In this document: positions 41,493-52,905 of the stretch, piece after piece
Numbering within the stretch: the stretch's first letter is position 1
Layout of the letters: each line of letters opens with the position of its first letter
Assembly: GCF_014844135.1 (NCBI RefSeq)
Contig: NZ_CP041403.1
Location: 1-64,000, forward strand
From: Arcobacter sp. FWKO B
GTDB lineage: Bacteria; Campylobacterota; Campylobacteria; Campylobacterales; Arcobacteraceae
Reading direction: 5' to 3'
Length of the DNA: 64,000 bases
Notes under the pieces: model-generated
What the model was told of the DNA's origin: nothing
What the model saw: the letters and a program-made list of their open reading frames with translations, nothing else
Databases searched by the model: none
Program-made: the position numbers and the translations under genes

Positions 41493-42530
41493 GTGAGTTT
41501 GATAAGAGAACTAAAACACTTTGGCAATTCATTGTCTTTATTGGTAGTAGAAGATGAGATTGCTCTTAATGCGGAATTGGTTAGTGTATTATCAACATTT
41601 TTTAAAAGTGTTGATTTTGCTTTTGATGGTAAAGAAGGGCTTGAGAAGTTTGCAAAAAATAGACCTGATATTGTTCTTACTGATATAAGTATGCCTAAAA
41701 TGGATGGTATAAAGATGTCGCAAGAGATCAAAAATCTATACAGAGGGCAACATATAGTGGTATTGTCAGCACATGGTGATACTAAGTATATGATTGAACT
41801 TATTGATATAGGAATAGATCAATTTATTTTGAAGCCTTTTGATAAAAATACTTTGATGTATAAATTATTAAAAGTAGCGGAAAATATCATTTATAAAAAA
41901 GAATTTGATAAATTCTACAAAGACAAACAACTTCAAAGAATCGCAACCATAGAAAGTATTGTAGATACACAGCCATTACACGAATCAATTGTGCCTTTAG
42001 ATGATATTAAACCAGTTGAGAAAGTGACATATAATTTAAGCCATAATAGAGAAGATGCCGATGAGTTTATGGAGTCTTTAAAAAATGATGAGTTAATGTG
42101 GATGGCATTTAAAGATGATATTACTGAATTGATGGAGCTAAGTGCTGAATTTGGTGAAGATGTGGATAATTTGGCATTAAATGGAAGACTCAGTGAAGGG
42201 TTACGAACTAGCTTAGTGCATATCGTAAGAAGATATGCAAAAATATTCTCTCAGCTTGAACAAATGGCAAAGATGTCAGATACATTGGAACTTTTGGCAG
42301 AGTTTTTGGAAGATTTGGATGTAAACATATTAGATGATGAACAAAATAGAAAACTTAAATTGTTGGAATATATCAATAATGATATAACAAGGTTTTTACA
42401 AACTGTTTTTGTTTATAAAGATAGTGTTGATATCTATTATCTTGAAGATTCTCTTGAAAGTTCAATTTTACAACTAAAAAGTGAAATGTTTGGCTTAGAA
42501 GTTGAAGAAGATGAGGCAGAGTTTTTTTAG
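41493..42530 (+). CDS. Response regulator with novel C-terminal domain, first gene of chemosensory operon
   Basis: The N-terminal receiver domain (VVEDE, IVLTDISMPKMDG, VLSAHGD, ILKPFD) covers residues 1-125. The remaining 220 residues are acidic and helical, with EFMESLKNDELMWMAF and a long coiled coil. I recognise no output family there. The start is GTG at 41493 with AAAGGA eight bases upstream. Being first in the cheA operon, it probably takes phosphate from that CheA. Confidence 0.85.
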   Translation: MSLIRELKHFGNSLSLLVVEDEIALNAELVSVLSTFFKSVDFAFDGKEGLEKFAKNRPDIVLTDISMPKMDGIKMSQEIKNLYRGQHIVVLSAHGDTKYMIELIDIGIDQFILKPFDKNTLMYKLLKVAENIIYKKEFDKFYKDKQLQRIATIESIVDTQPLHESIVPLDDIKPVEKVTYNLSHNREDADEFMESLKNDELMWMAFKDDITELMELSAEFGEDVDNLALNGRLSEGLRTSLVHIVRRYAKIFSQLEQMAKMSDTLELLAEFLEDLDVNILDDEQNRKLKLLEYINNDITRFLQTVFVYKDSVDIYYLEDSLESSILQLKSEMFGLEVEEDEAEFF

Positions 42531-42633
42531 ATTATAGTCTTTAAAATCAGTCTGGATCTTGTTTGGGGTAGGTGTTGGTGTTAATAAATTAGTGTCAATA
42601 AATAATGACAAAAGAAAGAAGTAGGTGAACAGT

Positions 42634-44952
42634 ATGAATCCTATATTACAACAATTTTTAATAGAGGCAAGAGAAAATCTCCTGTTTTTAGATAAAAATC
42701 TTGAGCTTTTAGAAAGCAATGATGGTGATATTGTAAATGCTCTATTTAGAGCTGCACATACACTAAAGGGGAGTTCTGGACTGGCTGGATTTGACTGTGT
42801 TAAAGAAATTACACATATTGCTGAAGATTTGCTTGATGCATATAGAAGTGATAAGATAATTTATTCAGATCAGCTTTTAAGAACTTTATATGATATGTTT
42901 GACGAGGTTGCAGAGCTTGTTGATATTGCTGAAGAAAGTGGCGAGATTACTTTTATTGAGCAAGAAAGAGTTGAAGAGTTTAAGTCATCAAGGGCTGCAA
43001 TTTTAGATTTGAGAGATGATATTCAAGATAAACAATTTTGTGAATTTAATATCATAGATGATGTGATACCGCCATTTGGGAATTTATTTTTAAATGATTT
43101 TCAAAGGTTAGATTTTAATAAGCTTAGTTTTGATACTAAGGCTATAACAAAAGAAGAGTTTGAAACAGGTGGTTTTTATATCATAGACCTTGATTTACCA
43201 AAAGAGACTTTAGAACTAGGTAATGACCCTTTTTATTCACTATATCTTTTGGGTGAAGAAAATGTCATTAGCATCTATATTGAGGTTGATGAGAGTTGTG
43301 AGAATATTGCAAAAAATCCAATAGTATGGAGTAGTAGAATTATTGCAATAGTATATTCAAATCAAAATGATTTTGAAAATGCTTTTTACAACTTTATGGA
43401 AGATGTGAGTATATATCCATTGGCTATAAAATCGTTTTTTAAAACAGAGCTTGATTTAAAAAGTAGTGATTGTCTAAAGCCTTTAATAGCTGATATTAAA
43501 TTGTTTTTAGAGAATTTGGATATTGATGGTTTGATAGATTTATTACAAGGTGTTAGTAAAGATTTACAAAAAGATTCTTTGGAATATTTTTTAATAAATC
43601 GTTTGTGCTATATTCTTGAGGTTAATGACTTAAATACTGAGCTATTAAATGAGATGGTTGGGTATGTAGTGGATGTGTTAAATATAGATGAATTATATAC
43701 TGAGGTGTGTGATCATAATACAACTGAAGATGTAATTATAGCTTCTCAGAAAGAGAAAAAAGCATCAAAACCTATGGCTAAAATGGTTAAAATTGATCTT
43801 GATGATGTTGATAAAATGATGGATATAGTTGGTGAAATGCTAGTTATTAAAAACTCATTACCTTATATTGCACAAGCTTTGAATTTTGAAAACATTGAAG
43901 CAAATAGAAGGGAGTTGATGGCAAGATATGATGAAATAAATCGTGTAACAATTCAATTACAAGAAAAAGTTATGGAGATGAGACTCCTTTCTTTGTCTTT
44001 TATATTTGATAGGTACCCTAAACTAATAAGAGATATATCTAAATCATTGGGCAAAAAAATAAAGTATGTTGAATCAGGTGGTGATACAAAGCTTGATAAA
44101 ACTATTATAGAAAAACTAGCAGATCCTTTGATTCATATTATTAGAAATTCTCTTGATCATGGAATAGAATCACCTGATATAAGAGAACAAAAAGGAAAAA
44201 GTCCAGAAGGAACAATCTCAATAAAAGCAGAATCTTTAGGCGATAAAGTATATGTAAGTATTGAGGATGATGGCAAAGGGATTGATGTACAAAAAGTTGT
44301 ACAAAAAGCCCTTGAGAAAAAAATGGTTGATGTTGAAGCACTAGAGCAAATGAGTGAAGAAGAAAAGCTTATGTTGGTGTTTCATCCTGGTGTTTCTACA
44401 ATGGAACAAATTAGTGAGCTATCTGGTCGTGGTGTTGGCATGGATGTTGTTCGTCAAAGTATCAATGAAGTAGGTGGCAAGATTTCACTAAGTAGTACAG
44501 TAAATGTAGGTACAAAGTTGGTATTAGAGTTACCTATGAGTGTAGCTTTAAGTAATGTGTTTCATATTAAGCTTGGTAATGCAAACTACGCACTATCAAT
44601 GGATAGTATTGTTGAAACTGTTCAAGTACCAAAAAATGAGGTTGAATATATAAATCAACAACCAATGCTAAAACTAAGGGGGGTATTGATCCCATTGGTA
44701 TTTTATTATAAATTGCTATCAAGTGATATAGATAGCAAAGATTCGTATTCATTGGTGATAATACAAACTCAAGGGCAAAAGTTTGGTTTTGTTGTAGATG
44801 AGTTTGTCAATCAACTTGATATAGTGCAAAAACCATTAGCACCAAATTTTAAAAATCACCCTTTTATATCAGGAACATCACTTCTTGGAAATGGTGAGGT
44901 TTTATTTGTCATAAATCCATCTAGACTTTATACTGTAAAGGAGAAAAAATAA
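42634..44952 (+). CDS. cheA: Chemotaxis histidine kinase CheA
   Basis: The domains are in order. The Hpt domain has the phospho-His in [12 protein letters not shown] (near residue 48). A long middle region (about 140-385) lacks an obvious canonical P2. The dimerisation helices follow, then the ATPase with [23 protein letters not shown] and [13 protein letters not shown], and a C-terminal CheW-like domain. I use ATG 42634, preceded by AGGTGA; a GTG three codons earlier is possible. It is 772 residues long. There is no receiver domain, so it is not the CheAY fusion used by flagellar chemotaxis in this phylum, which suggests a second pathway. Confidence 0.93.
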
Positions 44953-46856
44953 TGTCTTTCATCAGAGAAAATAATAGTGCTACAAGCGGTATGCACACTA
45001 CTAGGGTTCATAAAAAAGGTGATGTAATCAACAAAAGAAAAAATCGTACATTAGCAAAACAACAACAAATTTCAGAGACTATTAGTGGAATATCAAATGA
45101 GATTTTGGCAAAAGCTCAAGAAAGTGTAAGTGCAATAGAGGAGCTAAAAAGCTCAATGGAACAAATTGCAGCAGCATCAGAACAAAATGCAGGTGCAGCT
45201 GAGCAGAGTTTGAGTGTAGTAAGTGCACTTAATACTTCTATACAAAAAACAATGAAATCTTTGCGTGAGTCTGTAGCAATTGCTACAAGTACAAAGGTAG
45301 CTGTTGAAGATGGTGGTGAAAAAGTTATTGAGACGGCAAAAAGAATGCAACTTGCTTCTGAGACAGTAACAACAGTACAAGAAAAAAGTGCAGATATGAA
45401 AAAAGCTAGTGATAATATTGGTCAAGCGGTGGGGCTTATTGCTAAAATTGCTGATCAAACAAACTTATTAGCACTAAATGCTGCAATAGAAGCTGCAAAA
45501 GCAAAAGAACAAGGAAAAGGTTTTGCTGTAGTTGCAGCAGAAACTAGAGAACTAGCAGCAGTATCTACAACTTATGCAGATGTGATAAGAGAGGTTGTAA
45601 GTAAGATTCAAGAGTATATTGAAGAGGTTGAAAAAAATATTACAAAAGTAGCTGCTCTTATTATTGATTCATCCAATCTTGGTAAAACAATAACATTTAA
45701 TATCCAAGGTTCTATGCAAAGTATTCAAAATGCAATAGATATTACATTAAAAGGTGCTACAAAGTTTGAGCTTCTTGCTCAAAAAGCTCAAGAGTTCAAT
45801 AAAGGCTCAGAATCAATAGCATCAGCAGCAGAAGAGAGTGCTAGTGCAGTAGCTCAGATTACTAATTCTATACAGATGCAAGTAAATGCACTTCATGAAG
45901 CAGAAGAAGCAGCTAGTAGTTTAAGTGAGCTTGCCGAGGATTTAAAAAACTCAACGGATGCTGCAAAAGATGCAGAAGAGATTTCAACAGCAGCTGAACA
46001 GCTGATAAGCGTTGTGGAAGAGATACAAAAGTCAATGCAACAATCAGTTGTTGCACTAGAGCAAATAAGCCATGCAGCTCAAATTACAGTAGATGAAGCT
46101 ACAAACAATAAAAAGCTAGCTGAAGCAGCAGTTGAGTTACAAGAAGAGTTGCTTATTAATACACAAGAGGTTATTGAAAACCTTAAAAAAACATCGACAC
46201 ATCTAAAAGATGTGGAAAGTGATCTTGAACATGCTTATACTTTCACGCAAAAAAGTGTGCATGAAGGTAAAACAACAAGTACACAAATGAGATATGTTGA
46301 TAAAGAAGCTAATAAAATAAATAAAACTCTTGTAAAAATAATAAATACAAATACACAAACAACTATGCTTGCAGTTAGTGGAAGTGTAGAAGCTGCTAGA
46401 GCAGGTGAAAGTGGCAAAGGTTTTGCTGTAGTAAGTGGAGATATCAGAAGTCTTGCTCAAGATGCAGGTAATAATATGGATAAAGTGCAAGATGTAATGG
46501 ATAGCCTTGATGAAGAAATAGGGAATATAGGTATCATCTGGAGTCGAACTATGGCAAGTCAAGAAAATGAACTTATAGCTGTTAGTATGCTAAAAGAAGA
46601 AGCACAAAAAGCTATTCATAATGTAGAAAATATTGTTGGTGCATTTAATGAGCTTAAAATTGCAAATGAAACTAATAGGGCTTCTATACAAGAGGCACTA
46701 ACAGCTAGCACTCAAATACAAGTTGCTGCTCAACAATCTTTAAGAAATACAGAAGAATCAAAACATGCAGCAAATTTGATAAACGAAACAGTTGCCGAAA
46801 TGGGTGAATACATAGAAGATTTGGCAGTTTCTGCTGATGAATTACAACAAGGATGA
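44952..46856 (+). CDS. Soluble chemoreceptor with two signalling-tip modules
   Basis: The 634-residue protein has no membrane segment and no ligand-binding domain. It is almost entirely coiled coil. A first MCP tip lies near residues 162-215 ([17 protein letters not shown], then [14 protein letters not shown]). A second, altered tip lies near 461-515 ([19 protein letters not shown], then [15 protein letters not shown]). It thus looks like two receptor cytoplasmic hairpins in one chain. Its ATG overlaps the cheA stop (TAATG). It is the only receptor in the operon and presumably takes its input through partner proteins. Confidence 0.92.
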
Positions 46857-46860
46857 GGTC

Positions 46861-47631
46861 ATGGAATATTTACTAATAACTGTAAAAGACAAATACTTTG
46901 CAATTGATGTTGAAAATATTATAGAAATACTAAGACCAAAGGATATCACTCAAATTCCTGAGGTTGAGCCTTATATCTTGGGTGTAATGAATATAAGAGG
47001 ACATATTGGTACAGTAGTTAGTCTTAGAAAAATGCTCCATTACAAAGAAATGGGTGAAGAGTTACAAGAGTTTATTGCTACTATTAAAAAAGCTCATATT
47101 GACTGGGTAAAAGAGCTTGAAGACTCTGTGAGTCATGATAAAGATTTCACAAAAACTCTTGATCCGCATAAATGTGCTCTTGGACAATGGCTTGATAAGA
47201 TTATGACATGCTTGAAATGTGATGATATATTTATGGATAAGATTAAAAGAGAGATAAATCCGCATCATAAATGTCTACATGAAAAAGGTGCTGTTGTGCT
47301 TGATACTGCTTTAAAAGACAAAGATAAAGCAATGAGTATAATAAGAACTGAAATACACAACCATTTTGATGTGGTTGTAAGCAATATTGAGGCTTTAAAT
47401 AATGATGTTGATTTATGGACAAACTCTATTCAAAGAATAGTTGCTTTTGTGACAGCAAAGGGTGATACAATAAATATTTTAGTTGATGATGTTGTAGATA
47501 TTATCTCAGTAAAAGAGGAACAAAAACAAAAACTCTCTCAACTAGATGAGGGGCATATTGTACAGTTTGACAGTGCTATTGAACTAAAGGATGGAAAAAT
47601 AGCAACTATTATTAATAATATAAATATTTAA
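46861..47631 (+). CDS. cheW: CheW coupling protein with inserted zinc-binding CZB domain
   Basis: The first CheW half occupies residues 1-65 (YLLITVKDKYFAIDVE, ILGVMNIRG). The chain then enters a CZB domain: His79 (AHIDW), the hallmark CALGQW at 105-110 and HHKCLHEKG (His136, His140). The CheW fold resumes from about 185 (FVTAKGDTINILVDDVVDI). CZB binds zinc through three His and one Cys and senses zinc or oxidants such as hypochlorite in other proteins. I use ATG 46861, with AAGGA seven bases upstream, instead of 46837. Confidence 0.9.
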   Translation: MEYLLITVKDKYFAIDVENIIEILRPKDITQIPEVEPYILGVMNIRGHIGTVVSLRKMLHYKEMGEELQEFIATIKKAHIDWVKELEDSVSHDKDFTKTLDPHKCALGQWLDKIMTCLKCDDIFMDKIKREINPHHKCLHEKGAVVLDTALKDKDKAMSIIRTEIHNHFDVVVSNIEALNNDVDLWTNSIQRIVAFVTAKGDTINILVDDVVDIISVKEEQKQKLSQLDEGHIVQFDSAIELKDGKIATIINNINI

Positions 47632-47641
47632 AGGATATATT

Positions 47642-48091
47642 ATGATAGCAATACCAGTAAAAATTCAAAAAGATGATATTGTAGTTGCTCATTCTTTTGG
47701 AAGAGCTATATATTTTGCAATTGCAAATAAGGGACAAATTGAGATTGTGAAAAACAATTATCATTGTGGAAGGTCTGTTGCCGTTTGGCTCAAAAGTCTT
47801 GGTGTTACTGATATTATTGTATCTCAACTAAAAAAAAACCCTTTTGAAGCTTTACAAAATATTGGTATAAAAGTGTATTACATAGGTAAAAAAAAGGTAG
47901 GGTTTCGTAATGCTATTTTAAAATTTGCTGATGGTGAAGTGCCTATCTTAAATCAGTTTAGCTATGAGTTGTATATGAAAAAAAGCCCTTTAAATGACGA
48001 ACAAAGTGTAGTGCAAACATACAAAGAGAGAATACATAGTCTAATAGAGCAAAGAGTTGTTAGTAATGTTGTTAAAACTTATCAATTATAA
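47642..48091 (+). CDS. NifX/NifB-type dinitrogenase cofactor-binding domain protein
   Basis: The 149-residue protein matches the dinitrogenase iron-molybdenum cofactor family: VVAHSFGRAIYFAI, CGRSVAVWLKSLGV, a KNPFEALQNIGIKVYY segment, then a short extra C-terminal tail. Members carry Fe-S or FeMo-cofactor precursors. Here it lies inside a chemosensory operon, between cheW-CZB and cheB, 10 bases from each. A redox or Fe-S sensing input to the soluble receptor is conceivable. CheD, often at this position, is not what the sequence shows. Confidence 0.85.
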   Translation: MIAIPVKIQKDDIVVAHSFGRAIYFAIANKGQIEIVKNNYHCGRSVAVWLKSLGVTDIIVSQLKKNPFEALQNIGIKVYYIGKKKVGFRNAILKFADGEVPILNQFSYELYMKKSPLNDEQSVVQTYKERIHSLIEQRVVSNVVKTYQL

Positions 48092-48100
48092 GGCTTAAAA

Positions 48101-49159
48101 ATGAGTCAAAAAGTTTTGGTAGTAGATGATTCTGCTTTAATTAGAAAAGAACTTGGAAAATTGCTTGAGGGTGTTGGGTTTGAGCTTGATTACGCTAAAA
48201 ATGGACAAGAAGCTATAGATAAGGCATTGGAGTTTGACTATGATGTGATAACTATGGATATCAATATGCCTGTTTTAGATGGTTTAAGTGCAGTAAAAGA
48301 GATTATGAAAAAAAAGCCAACGCCGATAGTCATGGTAAGTTCTTTAACACAAGGTGATGCAGATATAACATTTGAAGCACTTGATTATGGAGCTGTTGAT
48401 TTTGTAGGAAAGCCTGGAACTATTACTTTAAAAGTGAAAGAATCAGGCGATGAAATCATATGTAAAATTCAAGCAGCTGCAAAGATACCAAAGAATAGAC
48501 TTACTATAAGAAAAGTAGGCAATGGCGTTAAAGCAACACTTGCTAAAAAACCAAGAAAGATAGTTATACAATCGCACGGCATGGTTGAGAAAGTTGTTTT
48601 GATAGGTTCATCAACAGGTGGTCCTAGTTTGATAGAAAAAATTGCAACCTCATTGCCAGAAGATTATCCATATCCTATATGTGTAGTTCAGCATATGCCA
48701 GAGTCTTTTACTGCAAAGTTTGCAAATAGACTTGATAGTATAAGTCATATTGAGGTTGTTGAAGCAAAAAATAATGACATTTTATGTTCTGGGAAGATGA
48801 TTATTGGGAAGGGTGGATATCATATGCTTTTTTCAAAAAAAGCTTCTGGAGTTGTAAATATAAAACTTGGTGCTAATCTTGAGAAATCATTTTTTGTCCC
48901 ATCCGTTGATAAAATGTTTTTTTCTGCAGCTACTACATTTAGTGGTATAGATGTTTTAGCAATAGAGCTTACAGGGATAGGTGATGATGGAGCAAAAGGT
49001 TTGCTTGAGCTGAAAAAACATGGAGCATTGACTATAGCTGAATCAGAAGAAACAGCTACAATATATGGGATGCCTAGAGTTGCATATGAGATAGGCGCAA
49101 CTGTCAAAGTTCTCCCTTTTTCTAAAATATTGGAAGAAATTGTGTTATTTGGAAAGTGA
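48101..49159 (+). CDS. cheB: Chemotaxis methylesterase CheB
   Basis: A receiver domain (VDDSALIRKEL, DVITMDINMPVLDGL) is linked to the methylesterase domain. Its Ser-His-Asp residues lie in GSSTGGPS, CVVQHMP and GIGDDGAKGL. It removes methyl groups from receptors or deamidates Gln, providing adaptation. It pairs with cheR downstream. The length of 352 residues is normal. Confidence 0.95.
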   Translation: MSQKVLVVDDSALIRKELGKLLEGVGFELDYAKNGQEAIDKALEFDYDVITMDINMPVLDGLSAVKEIMKKKPTPIVMVSSLTQGDADITFEALDYGAVDFVGKPGTITLKVKESGDEIICKIQAAAKIPKNRLTIRKVGNGVKATLAKKPRKIVIQSHGMVEKVVLIGSSTGGPSLIEKIATSLPEDYPYPICVVQHMPESFTAKFANRLDSISHIEVVEAKNNDILCSGKMIIGKGGYHMLFSKKASGVVNIKLGANLEKSFFVPSVDKMFFSAATTFSGIDVLAIELTGIGDDGAKGLLELKKHGALTIAESEETATIYGMPRVAYEIGATVKVLPFSKILEEIVLFGK

Positions 49160-49204: not shown

Positions 49205-50029
49205 ATGATTGAGTTTAAAGATTTTCTTAGATTGAGAGATTTTTTATACCGTAAAACTGGTATCTATATGGATGATAAAAAATATGAACAATTTAGTAAA
49301 AAACTTATTTCATATTTAAAAGAGCATAGTTATGATAATTTTAGTGTATTTTTTCATGCATTAAGATTTGAAAGTGGTAGTAATATGCTTCAAGGTGTTA
49401 TAAATCTTGTGACCGTAAATGAGACTTATTTTTTTAGAGAAAAGCACCATTTTGATATATTGATAAATAATGTATTGCCATTTTTACATCAGCATAGAAG
49501 CAAAAATGATATTTTAAGAATACTATGTGCTCCTTCTTCAACTGGTGAAGAACCATATACCTTGGCTTTACATCTTTTGGATGAAGCAAAATTACTTGAA
49601 TCTAGAGATATTGAACTAATAGGAATAGATATAGATAGTAATGCAATAGATAAAGCAACATCTGGGGTTTTTACAAAAAGAAGTGTGCAATTTGTTCCAA
49701 ATCATTTATTAACAAGATACTTTAAATACAAAGAGAACAATTACCATATACATTCACATATTAAAAGTTCAATTTCTTTTAAAGTTGCAAATGTAATGGA
49801 TAGAAATCAGATGATGGGACTTGGGAATTTTGATGTGATTTTTTCAAGGAATATGTTGATTTATTTTGATGATGAAAGTAGAAAAAATGTTAGTCATACA
49901 TTTCATGATTTATTAAAACCTAAAGGTTTTGTATTTTTAGGGCATGCTGATAAAATGTGCCAAGTTGATTCACTTTTTGATACTGTAAAAATGTCTGATT
50001 CAATTATATATCAAAAGTCTAATAAGTGA
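49205..50029 (+). CDS. cheR: Chemotaxis methyltransferase CheR
   Basis: The N-terminal helical domain (YRKTGIYMDDKKYEQFSKKL) and the SAM domain are present. The SAM domain has VTVNETYFFREKHHFD, CAPSSTGEEPYTLA and DVIFSRNMLIYFD. It methylates glutamates of the receptor. It is 274 residues long and lacks the C-terminal pentapeptide-binding extensions seen elsewhere. Confidence 0.95.
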   Translation: MIEFKDFLRLRDFLYRKTGIYMDDKKYEQFSKKLISYLKEHSYDNFSVFFHALRFESGSNMLQGVINLVTVNETYFFREKHHFDILINNVLPFLHQHRSKNDILRILCAPSSTGEEPYTLALHLLDEAKLLESRDIELIGIDIDSNAIDKATSGVFTKRSVQFVPNHLLTRYFKYKENNYHIHSHIKSSISFKVANVMDRNQMMGLGNFDVIFSRNMLIYFDDESRKNVSHTFHDLLKPKGFVFLGHADKMCQVDSLFDTVKMSDSIIYQKSNK

Positions 50030-50057: not shown

Positions 50058-50444
50058 ATGGCAAAAATTGTAGTTATAGTTGATGATTCTCAAACAGTTC
50101 ATCTATCGCTGGAAATGGCTATGGAGGATTTGATAAATAGTGGTGAAATTGATAAAAAATCTTATATAAATCCACTTGATTTTGTGCAAGATGTTAAAAA
50201 TGGTTTGGTGTATGATTTGTGTATAACAGATATTAATATGCCTGAAATGAATGGTTTAGATTTAACAAAATTTCTTAAATCTTTCCCAGCAACACAAATC
50301 AAGCCTATTTTAGCACTGACAACAGAAAGCTCTGATGCAATCAAAGAGCAAGGAAAAGAAGCTGGACTTACTGGATGGATTACCAAGCCTTTTACAGCAG
50401 ATAAGGTTATTAGTGCTATAAAAAGAGTTTTAAGACTTAGATAA
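50058..50444 (+). CDS. cheY: CheY-type response regulator
   Basis: This single receiver domain (128 residues) has VDDSQTVHLSL, CITDINMPEMNGLDL, LTTESSD and WITKPF. It is a small output protein of the operon. Whether it acts on a flagellar motor or another target is not visible. It is led by AAAGGAGATACT before the ATG. Confidence 0.93.
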   Translation: MAKIVVIVDDSQTVHLSLEMAMEDLINSGEIDKKSYINPLDFVQDVKNGLVYDLCITDINMPEMNGLDLTKFLKSFPATQIKPILALTTESSDAIKEQGKEAGLTGWITKPFTADKVISAIKRVLRLR

Positions 50445-50823: not shown

Positions 50824-52905
50824 GTGAGGAGTTATAATTTTTACTATACTGATGAAAGTACCTTTTAAAAAGATGTATCGGTTATTAATATAAATTCAAA
50901 AAATGTATTAATTCAGGTTTTTACATATATAACTAAAAAGAAGGAAATCGCTAAACTTCGTGATAGTATATTAAAACTTTTTCCATATGCTAAAATTATA
51001 GGTACAACAACAGATGGTGAGATAAATGGCTCTAAGGTTTCGACACATAAAACTGTTGTAAGTGTAACAATATTTGAAAAAACTACTGTAGAAGCAATAG
51101 CTTTAGAATATAAAAAAGAGCATTGTAAAGAGTGTAGAGCTTATTATGAGTGTATAAGTTTTGGTAAGAGTTTGGCAAATCAATTTACAAAAACAGATCC
51201 AAAAGTTGCAATATTTTTTGCTGATGGGCTCAACTTAAATGGTGAAAATTTTATAAAAGCTGTTGGTGAAACATTACCTAGTACTGTTATAATAGGTGGA
51301 CTTGCTGGTTCAAGTGGTAGCTTTAAAACTACTCTTGTATTTGATAATAAAAATATATTCAAACATGGTGCAGTTGGTATTGGTCTTTATGGTGAAAGTA
51401 TAATAGCAATTACTGATTATAAATGTAATTGGTCAACCATAGGTAAAGCGATGAAGATTACTAAATCAAATGGTAATAGAATCTATACAATAGATGGAAA
51501 TAGTGCATATGATATATATAGATACTACTTAGGCGATGATGTAGCTATGCATTTGCCCAAAATTGGTATGCAGTTTCCTTTGGTTAAAGAATATCCATCA
51601 TTGATTGCAAGATCAGTCATAGAAAAATATGATGATGGTTCACTTGAATTTACTGGTAATTTCAAAGAAGGTGAAGTCGTAAAGTTTGGTTTTATAAATA
51701 GTGATAGTGTATTTGCTGATGCATCTTATGTATCAGAAGAGATACTAAATACAGATGTAGAGTCTATTTTTATTTATTCATGTATGGCTAGAAGAAGGCT
51801 AATGCCTGATATGATTTATAAAGAGATTGAACCTCTTTCTACCCTAGCATCAACAGCTGGTTTTTTTACAAATGGTAGTTTTTTAACCCATAATAATGAG
51901 AGTTTGTTCAATCAAACCATGAGTGTTATTGCTTTAAGTGAAAATGTAAAAAAACCAATTATCAAATTTAAACATACCCCTCAAAATATAGTAAGTAAGA
52001 AAAAATTAGACTTTTTTTCTACCGTTAAAGCACTTGTGCATCTAGTTGATACTTCCCACAAAGAACTCGAGCTTAAAAATCAACAACTTCAAGAGTTAAA
52101 TGAAATATTAGAAAATTCTATTGATTTAAAAATAAGAGAGTTAAGGGAAAAAGATCATATCTTAATACAACAATCAAAATTAGCTTCTATGGGGGAGATG
52201 ATAGGTAATATTGCCCATCAGTGGAGGCAACCACTCAATGTCATAGGGGCTATTAATATGAAAATAGAAACATTACTTGATTTTGGTGAGGTTATTGATT
52301 CTCAAAAATACAAACCTATTAGTAGTGATATAGTTATGCAACTAGATTATATGTCAAAAACTATTGATGATTTTAGAGATTTTTTTATCAAAAGAAAAGA
52401 AAAAAGTGTATTTAGTATTTATGAAGCAATAATGGATGTGTATAATTTAGTTAAGATTCAGTATCAAAATAAAAATATTGAAATAGATATTCAAGGGAGT
52501 GATATTTTTATAAATGGTTATAAAAATGAGTTTAAGCAGGTAGTAATAAATATACTTAACAATGCAAAAGATGCTATTTTAGCTAGATACAATAATAGAA
52601 CACTTCAAGATGATGGCTATATTAAAATAATTCTTAGCGGAAATCTTGAAAATATACAACTTTTTATTATTGATAATGGAGGTGGTATTCCTGAGAGTGT
52701 ATTGCCTAAAATTTTTGAACCATACTATACAACTAAATCAAAAACCAAAGGGACAGGTATTGGCTTGTATATGAGCCATCATATTATTCATGGTCATTTT
52801 CACGGTGAACTACAAGTGGAAAATACAGTATTTACACATAATAATAACAAATATAAAGGTGCTATGTTCAAAATCATATTACCTTCTAAAATCAACTCAC
52901 AATAA
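50824..52905 (+). pseudogene. FIST-domain sensor histidine kinase interrupted by a nonsense codon
   Basis: The reading frame starts at GTG 50824 with AGGGAG six bases upstream (MRSYNFYYTDESTF) and meets TAA at 50866-50868. After that stop it continues open in the same frame to 52905. The region after the stop is a clear FIST sensory domain (VININ, GTTTDGEI, FADGLNLNGENF, GGLAGSSGSF). A coiled coil, a HisKA box (MIGNIAHQWRQPLN) and an ATPase domain (VVINILNNAKDA, DNGGGIPE, GTGIGLYMS) follow. No ATG or GTG restarts the frame before a TTG at 51172, which would cut the FIST domain. One substitution in codon 15 explains it; sequencing error or readthrough are alternatives. Confidence 0.82.

Follow-up and report, generated by a model that had tools for sequence, protein, structure and literature searches.

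An open reading frame at 46861..47631 (+ strand; 256 residues) in the genome of Arcobacter sp. FWKO B encodes a CheW protein with a CZB domain inserted within its fold (CheW-CZB). CheW is normally a small protein whose role is only to link chemotaxis receptors to the kinase. On balance, we think that CheW-CZB is probably a sensory coupling protein that relays zinc or redox state to the CheA kinase in a cytoplasmic array; zinc binding, redox response, and coupling to CheA are what we infer from sequence comparison, structure modeling, and gene neighborhood. The CheW-CZB class is already known; what appears to be new here is the setting beside a DosM receptor of the F9 chemotaxis class, the replacement of a triple CheW, and a series of clusters with and without CZB. 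All coordinates refer to the window, the whole 64,000-nucleotide stretch of DNA that was analyzed (NZ_CP041403.1, positions 1 to 64,000).

Gene, domains, and predicted fold of CheW-CZB

The frame is real and open. Purine-rich AAGGATGAGG lies directly 5′ of the ATG, which starts 4 nt past the stop codon of the DosM-like receptor gene, so the two genes are probably translated together; an alternative, longer in-frame ATG (46837) falls within the receptor gene. Pfam matched the product to CheW in two stretches (best 2-66; E 9.3e-21) and to CZB at residues 79-145 (E 7.6e-9), both above the curated cut-offs. The AlphaFold2 model, run with 12 homologues (pLDDT 91.5, pTM 0.80), has five strands at 2-54 (first CheW barrel), helices at 64-91, 106-114, 122-150, 154-181, and 183-190 (CZB and an exit helix), and strands at 192-254 (second barrel), and so restores a single CheW fold around the insertion, with the two-barrel fold predicted complete. 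Solved CheW structures matched the model across 1-256 in VIA-align (about 130 residues aligned; Z 16.2-17.7, five entries), and the best-ranked helical-bundle match to the insert was the crystal structure of the DgcZ CZB domain (3t9o; model residues 64-185, Z 13.6, 2.3 Å). Taken together, the profile and structure matches are far beyond chance. Because such Z scores come more readily to helical bundles, Pfam and the ligands also underpin the CZB assignment.

The original prediction that CheW is interrupted by CZB and then resumes was borne out by Pfam, AlphaFold, and VIA-align, with CheW halves at about residues 1-60 (46861..47040, +) and 190-256 (47428..47628, +; the region where plain orthologous CheWs align) flanking a four-helix CZB insertion at about 64-185 (47050..47415, +). 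The four ligands it named, His79, Cys105, His136, and His140, are all present exactly at those positions and form a predicted 3His/1Cys zinc set. In the model, the insert falls between strands 5 and 6, in the loop that connects the barrels, and a short link leads into and out of it; such an arrangement would suit the passing of a conformational change.

The residue following the zinc cysteine is alanine (Cys105-Ala106), a position described in PMC8262984 as poorly conserved or alanine in the CheW-CZB subgroup. An extra CxxC lies at 47209-47220 (codons 117-120: Cys117, Cys120); this motif occurred in 3 of 46 CZB domains examined, all three in CheW-CZB proteins (window, G439, and G442). The NxRG motif of the first CheW half is intact (NIRG, residues 44-47), aligning with NLRG of canonical CheW and with the Arg62 region of E. 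coli CheW, used as a control; the genome's own CheWs (NLRG) agree.

A frameshift or fusion artifact was rejected, given the uninterrupted frame, the confident model, and 11 further homologues that carry the insertion at the same point. A TlpD-type CZB protein or misread receptor was rejected because the product has no MCP domain, and a tandem fusion (CheW then CZB) because the second CheW half is present C-terminal to CZB.

An F9-type cluster whose receptor lacks a recognized sensor

The cluster runs on the + strand in the order response regulator with a C-terminal extension (41493..42530; Pfam Response_reg), CheA (42625..44952; Hpt, dimerization, ATPase, and CheW-like domains by Pfam), DosM-like double-tip receptor (44952..46856; one-base overlap with cheA), CheW-CZB, NifX/NifB-like FeMo-co domain protein (47642..48091; PF02579, E 1.5e-8), CheB (48101..49159), CheR (49205..50029), and CheY-like response regulator (50058..50444). 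CheB, CheR, and CheY are about 48-54%, 43-48%, and 42-51% identical, respectively, to their counterparts in relatives' F9 clusters. The NifX/NifB-like gene, 10 nt past cheW-CZB in the same operon, is absent from the otherwise similar cluster of a second Campylobacterota genome (G439). Downstream lies a FIST-domain histidine kinase gene (51172-52905), followed by several response regulator and kinase genes to about 58250. The cluster holds a single receptor gene and a single CheW protein gene, cheW-CZB; two ordinary CheWs are encoded elsewhere in the genome.

The receptor matched Pfam MCPsignal in four stretches, carries one tip motif near 164-193 and another near 464-493, and has no hydrophobic, transmembrane-type segment (maximum 19-residue hydropathy, 0.98); its model forms four long helices (a double hairpin) with turns at 185-188 and 484-487, and a search of Pfam gave no sensor domain match in it. 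This is the design of DosM, the soluble double-tipped receptor of the F9 class (PMC7534058; PMC9321776), and full-length relatives of the window receptor belong to F9 clusters. According to PMC9321776, a sensor domain is missing from almost every DosM receptor, and F9 arrays need another sensory protein. As the sole receptor has no recognizable sensor, the CheW-CZB linker may itself sense; other receptors of the genome might also feed the array.

No CheW3 (three CheW domains in one protein) was found in the window genome; because the published F9 definition requires CheW3, we call the cluster F9-type rather than F9. Its DosM-like receptor, CheA, CheB, CheR, and CheY are as in the F9 class, and it is clearly related to the fuller F9 clusters of Campylobacterota, from which it differs in lacking CheW3, the HEAT protein, the ParA ATPase, and an 88-aa protein. 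CheA, DosM, CheW-CZB, CheB, CheR, and CheY stand in one run in the window, and this run is repeated in G439, where CheW3 is likewise absent. CheW-CZB holds the CheW3 position between DosM and CheB (in the window, with the NifX-like gene before cheB) and has replaced the usual triple CheW in both clusters.

Three of the fuller Campylobacterota clusters (L106, L107, and L108) have DosM, CheW3, CheB, HEAT, CheR, CheA, and ParA; a 2022 survey records no more than partial F9 sets for the phylum (PMC9321776), so such clusters appear to be additions. A lone PAS protein of about 141 residues is encoded 5′ of dosM in most fuller clusters (e.g., L111:3522-3947) and is a candidate input. A plasmid-borne F9 cluster was also seen in Sphaerotilus (DosM, 555-aa CheW, CheB, HEAT, CheR, and CheA), with no annotated CheW-CZB.

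Occurrence and conservation of CheW-CZB

Scanning genome contigs with a single sequence gave no CheW-CZB relatives; a two-sequence alignment scan found them in two Campylobacterales (one being the related genome with a full-length, 24% identical homologue) and in three Clostridia, every one of them carrying the same insertion. CheW-CZB occurred in 7/397 Campylobacterota genomes (the window genome counted), and six of 146 genomes of one Clostridial order matched at E < 1e-20, so the class is rare and patchily distributed. Uniqueness of the window protein was rejected, as Clostridia have the same insertion and the class is published: a 2021 study (PMC8262984) put it at 1.4% of CZB proteins, with its highest abundance in Clostridia, and PMC10653840 lists it as a known class.

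Every Campylobacterota genome found to have CheW-CZB also has an F9-type DosM: all seven were among the 10/397 with a strong DosM match (E < 1e-250; hypergeometric chance 4e-13, the genomes being related and the counts not independent). Two genomes from beyond the 397-genome sample (G078 and G442) each have both genes. Searches of the Clostridial CheW-CZB genomes gave no DosM, and the Clostridial CheW-CZB genes examined had no che neighbors.

The HCHH ligands were kept in 10/12 aligned homologues, Clostridia included, and the window and G439 CZB domains, yet only 24% identical, share all four ligands and the CxxC. Decayed sets were seen in the CheW-CZB orthologues of G384 (HCQY, two histidines lost; L067:3510-4289) and G406 (YCFY, three lost; L071:7736-8509), both with the cysteine kept; zinc or redox function is thus not universal in the class. 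Among Campylobacterota CheW-CZB proteins, only those of the window and G439, the two whose clusters lack CheW3, have an intact NxRG; its arginine is missing from CheW-CZB (and plain CheW) of clusters with CheW3. The absence of CheW3 together with intact NIRG makes CheW-CZB the likely coupler in the window and G439; elsewhere in Campylobacterota it may be accessory.

Plain CheWs of 142-144 residues occupy the CheW-CZB position in the F9 clusters of G373, G385, and G246, which supports orthology to ordinary CheW and indicates that CZB is dispensable for keeping the system. The G373 plain CheW is 70-78% (N-half) and 54-56% (C-half) identical to same-genus CheW-CZB. G373 and G385 adjoin CZB-bearing G394 in the DosM tree (99/98) and group with it in a 2,125-column CheA/DosM/CheB/CheR tree (100%), implying that CZB was lost in G373 and G385. 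Clusters with and without CZB are thus a natural presence/absence comparison.

Proposed mechanism and alternatives

As an ordinary CheW does, CheW-CZB would dock between CheA and the tip of DosM, with its CZB domain binding Zn2+ through His79, Cys105, His136, and His140. If zinc were lost, either because the free zinc pool is depleted or because Cys105 is oxidized (possibly aided by nearby Cys117-x-x-Cys120), the CZB helices would rearrange; as short links connect the bundle to strands 5 and 6, the rearrangement is proposed to shift the two CheW barrels and so change CheA activity, which would be read through CheY, CheB, and the response regulators. By analogy with TlpD, believed to keep the kinase on when zinc is bound and off when it is not (preprint PMC12871147), zinc-bound CheW-CZB would be the kinase-on state. 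The McpA CZB receptor reads zinc availability, itself set by redox conditions (preprint PMC13370339), and zinc inhibits the CZB protein DgcZ. Gating of CheA by CheW-CZB on zinc or oxidants, as originally predicted, fits this work and is plausible by analogy.

TlpD and McpA resemble the predicted system in having a CZB domain that feeds CheA in the cytoplasm, but theirs is on a receptor with an MCP signaling domain, whereas here the coupling protein carries CZB and no sensor is recognized in the receptor. A sensor fused to CheW can feed an array, as the CheWS precedent of Treponema indicates (CheW plus a CheR-like SAM sensor); the CheWS sensor is C-terminal, whereas the CZB domain is embedded within the CheW fold and flanked by short links. 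The published CheW-CZB subgroup (PMC10653840; PMC8262984) has the same domain pair, 3His/1Cys, and alanine after the zinc cysteine, and its Clostridial members found here show the same insertion; the window protein differs in being the only CheW of an F9/DosM-type che operon, in Campylobacterota, and in its extra CxxC. No paper joining DosM with CheW-CZB was found in the literature searched; PMC9321776 mentions CZB once.

The CZB domain could instead be a dimerization or packing module that tunes array geometry, with zinc as a structural ion, which we regard as rather unlikely. Homodimer formation by CZB domains (PMC8262984) is consistent with such a role, as are the two-layered F9 arrays (PMC7534058), in which geometry may matter, the standing of CheW-CZB in place of triple CheW in the window and G439, and the retention of CZB in G384 and G406 after loss of histidine ligands. 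The ligand conservation in most homologues, held between window and G439 despite the divergence of their CZB domains, argues against it, as does the clean loss of CZB in G373 and G385 with the rest of the cluster intact. An accessory modulator that caps or competes in the array, while triple CheW or another CheW couples, seems improbable: the lost NxRG arginine suggests a non-canonical role in clusters with CheW3, and the two ordinary CheWs encoded elsewhere in the window genome could serve, but the window and G439 clusters lack CheW3 and keep NIRG.

It is also unlikely, if slightly less so than the accessory role, that the array takes its input from another protein (the lone PAS protein, another soluble receptor, or the downstream FIST-domain kinase), with CZB only setting gain or linking to metal metabolism. 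The lone PAS protein stands beside DosM in most other F9 clusters examined, the FIST-domain kinase is near, and V. cholerae F9 arrays hold a second receptor (PMC7534058); no gene of the lone-PAS type was seen in the window cluster, however, and input from another protein is compatible with CZB sensing, not exclusive of it.

The signal source of the double-layer cytoplasmic F9 arrays is an open question, given the near-universal lack of a sensor domain in DosM (PMC9321776). A sensory CheW-CZB would place the input in the coupling protein, not the receptor, and we tentatively suggest, as a possibility short of the probable, that a zinc- or redox-responsive CheW drives CheA under a sensorless DosM scaffold and answers that question in one lineage. 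The window locus is a compact system (one kinase, one sensorless receptor, and one CheW with a recognized sensor) in which reconstitution in vitro is possible, and orthologous clusters with CZB, without CZB, and with decayed ligands are ready-made controls. If the reading is true, CheW would be shown to be an input site and not only a linker.
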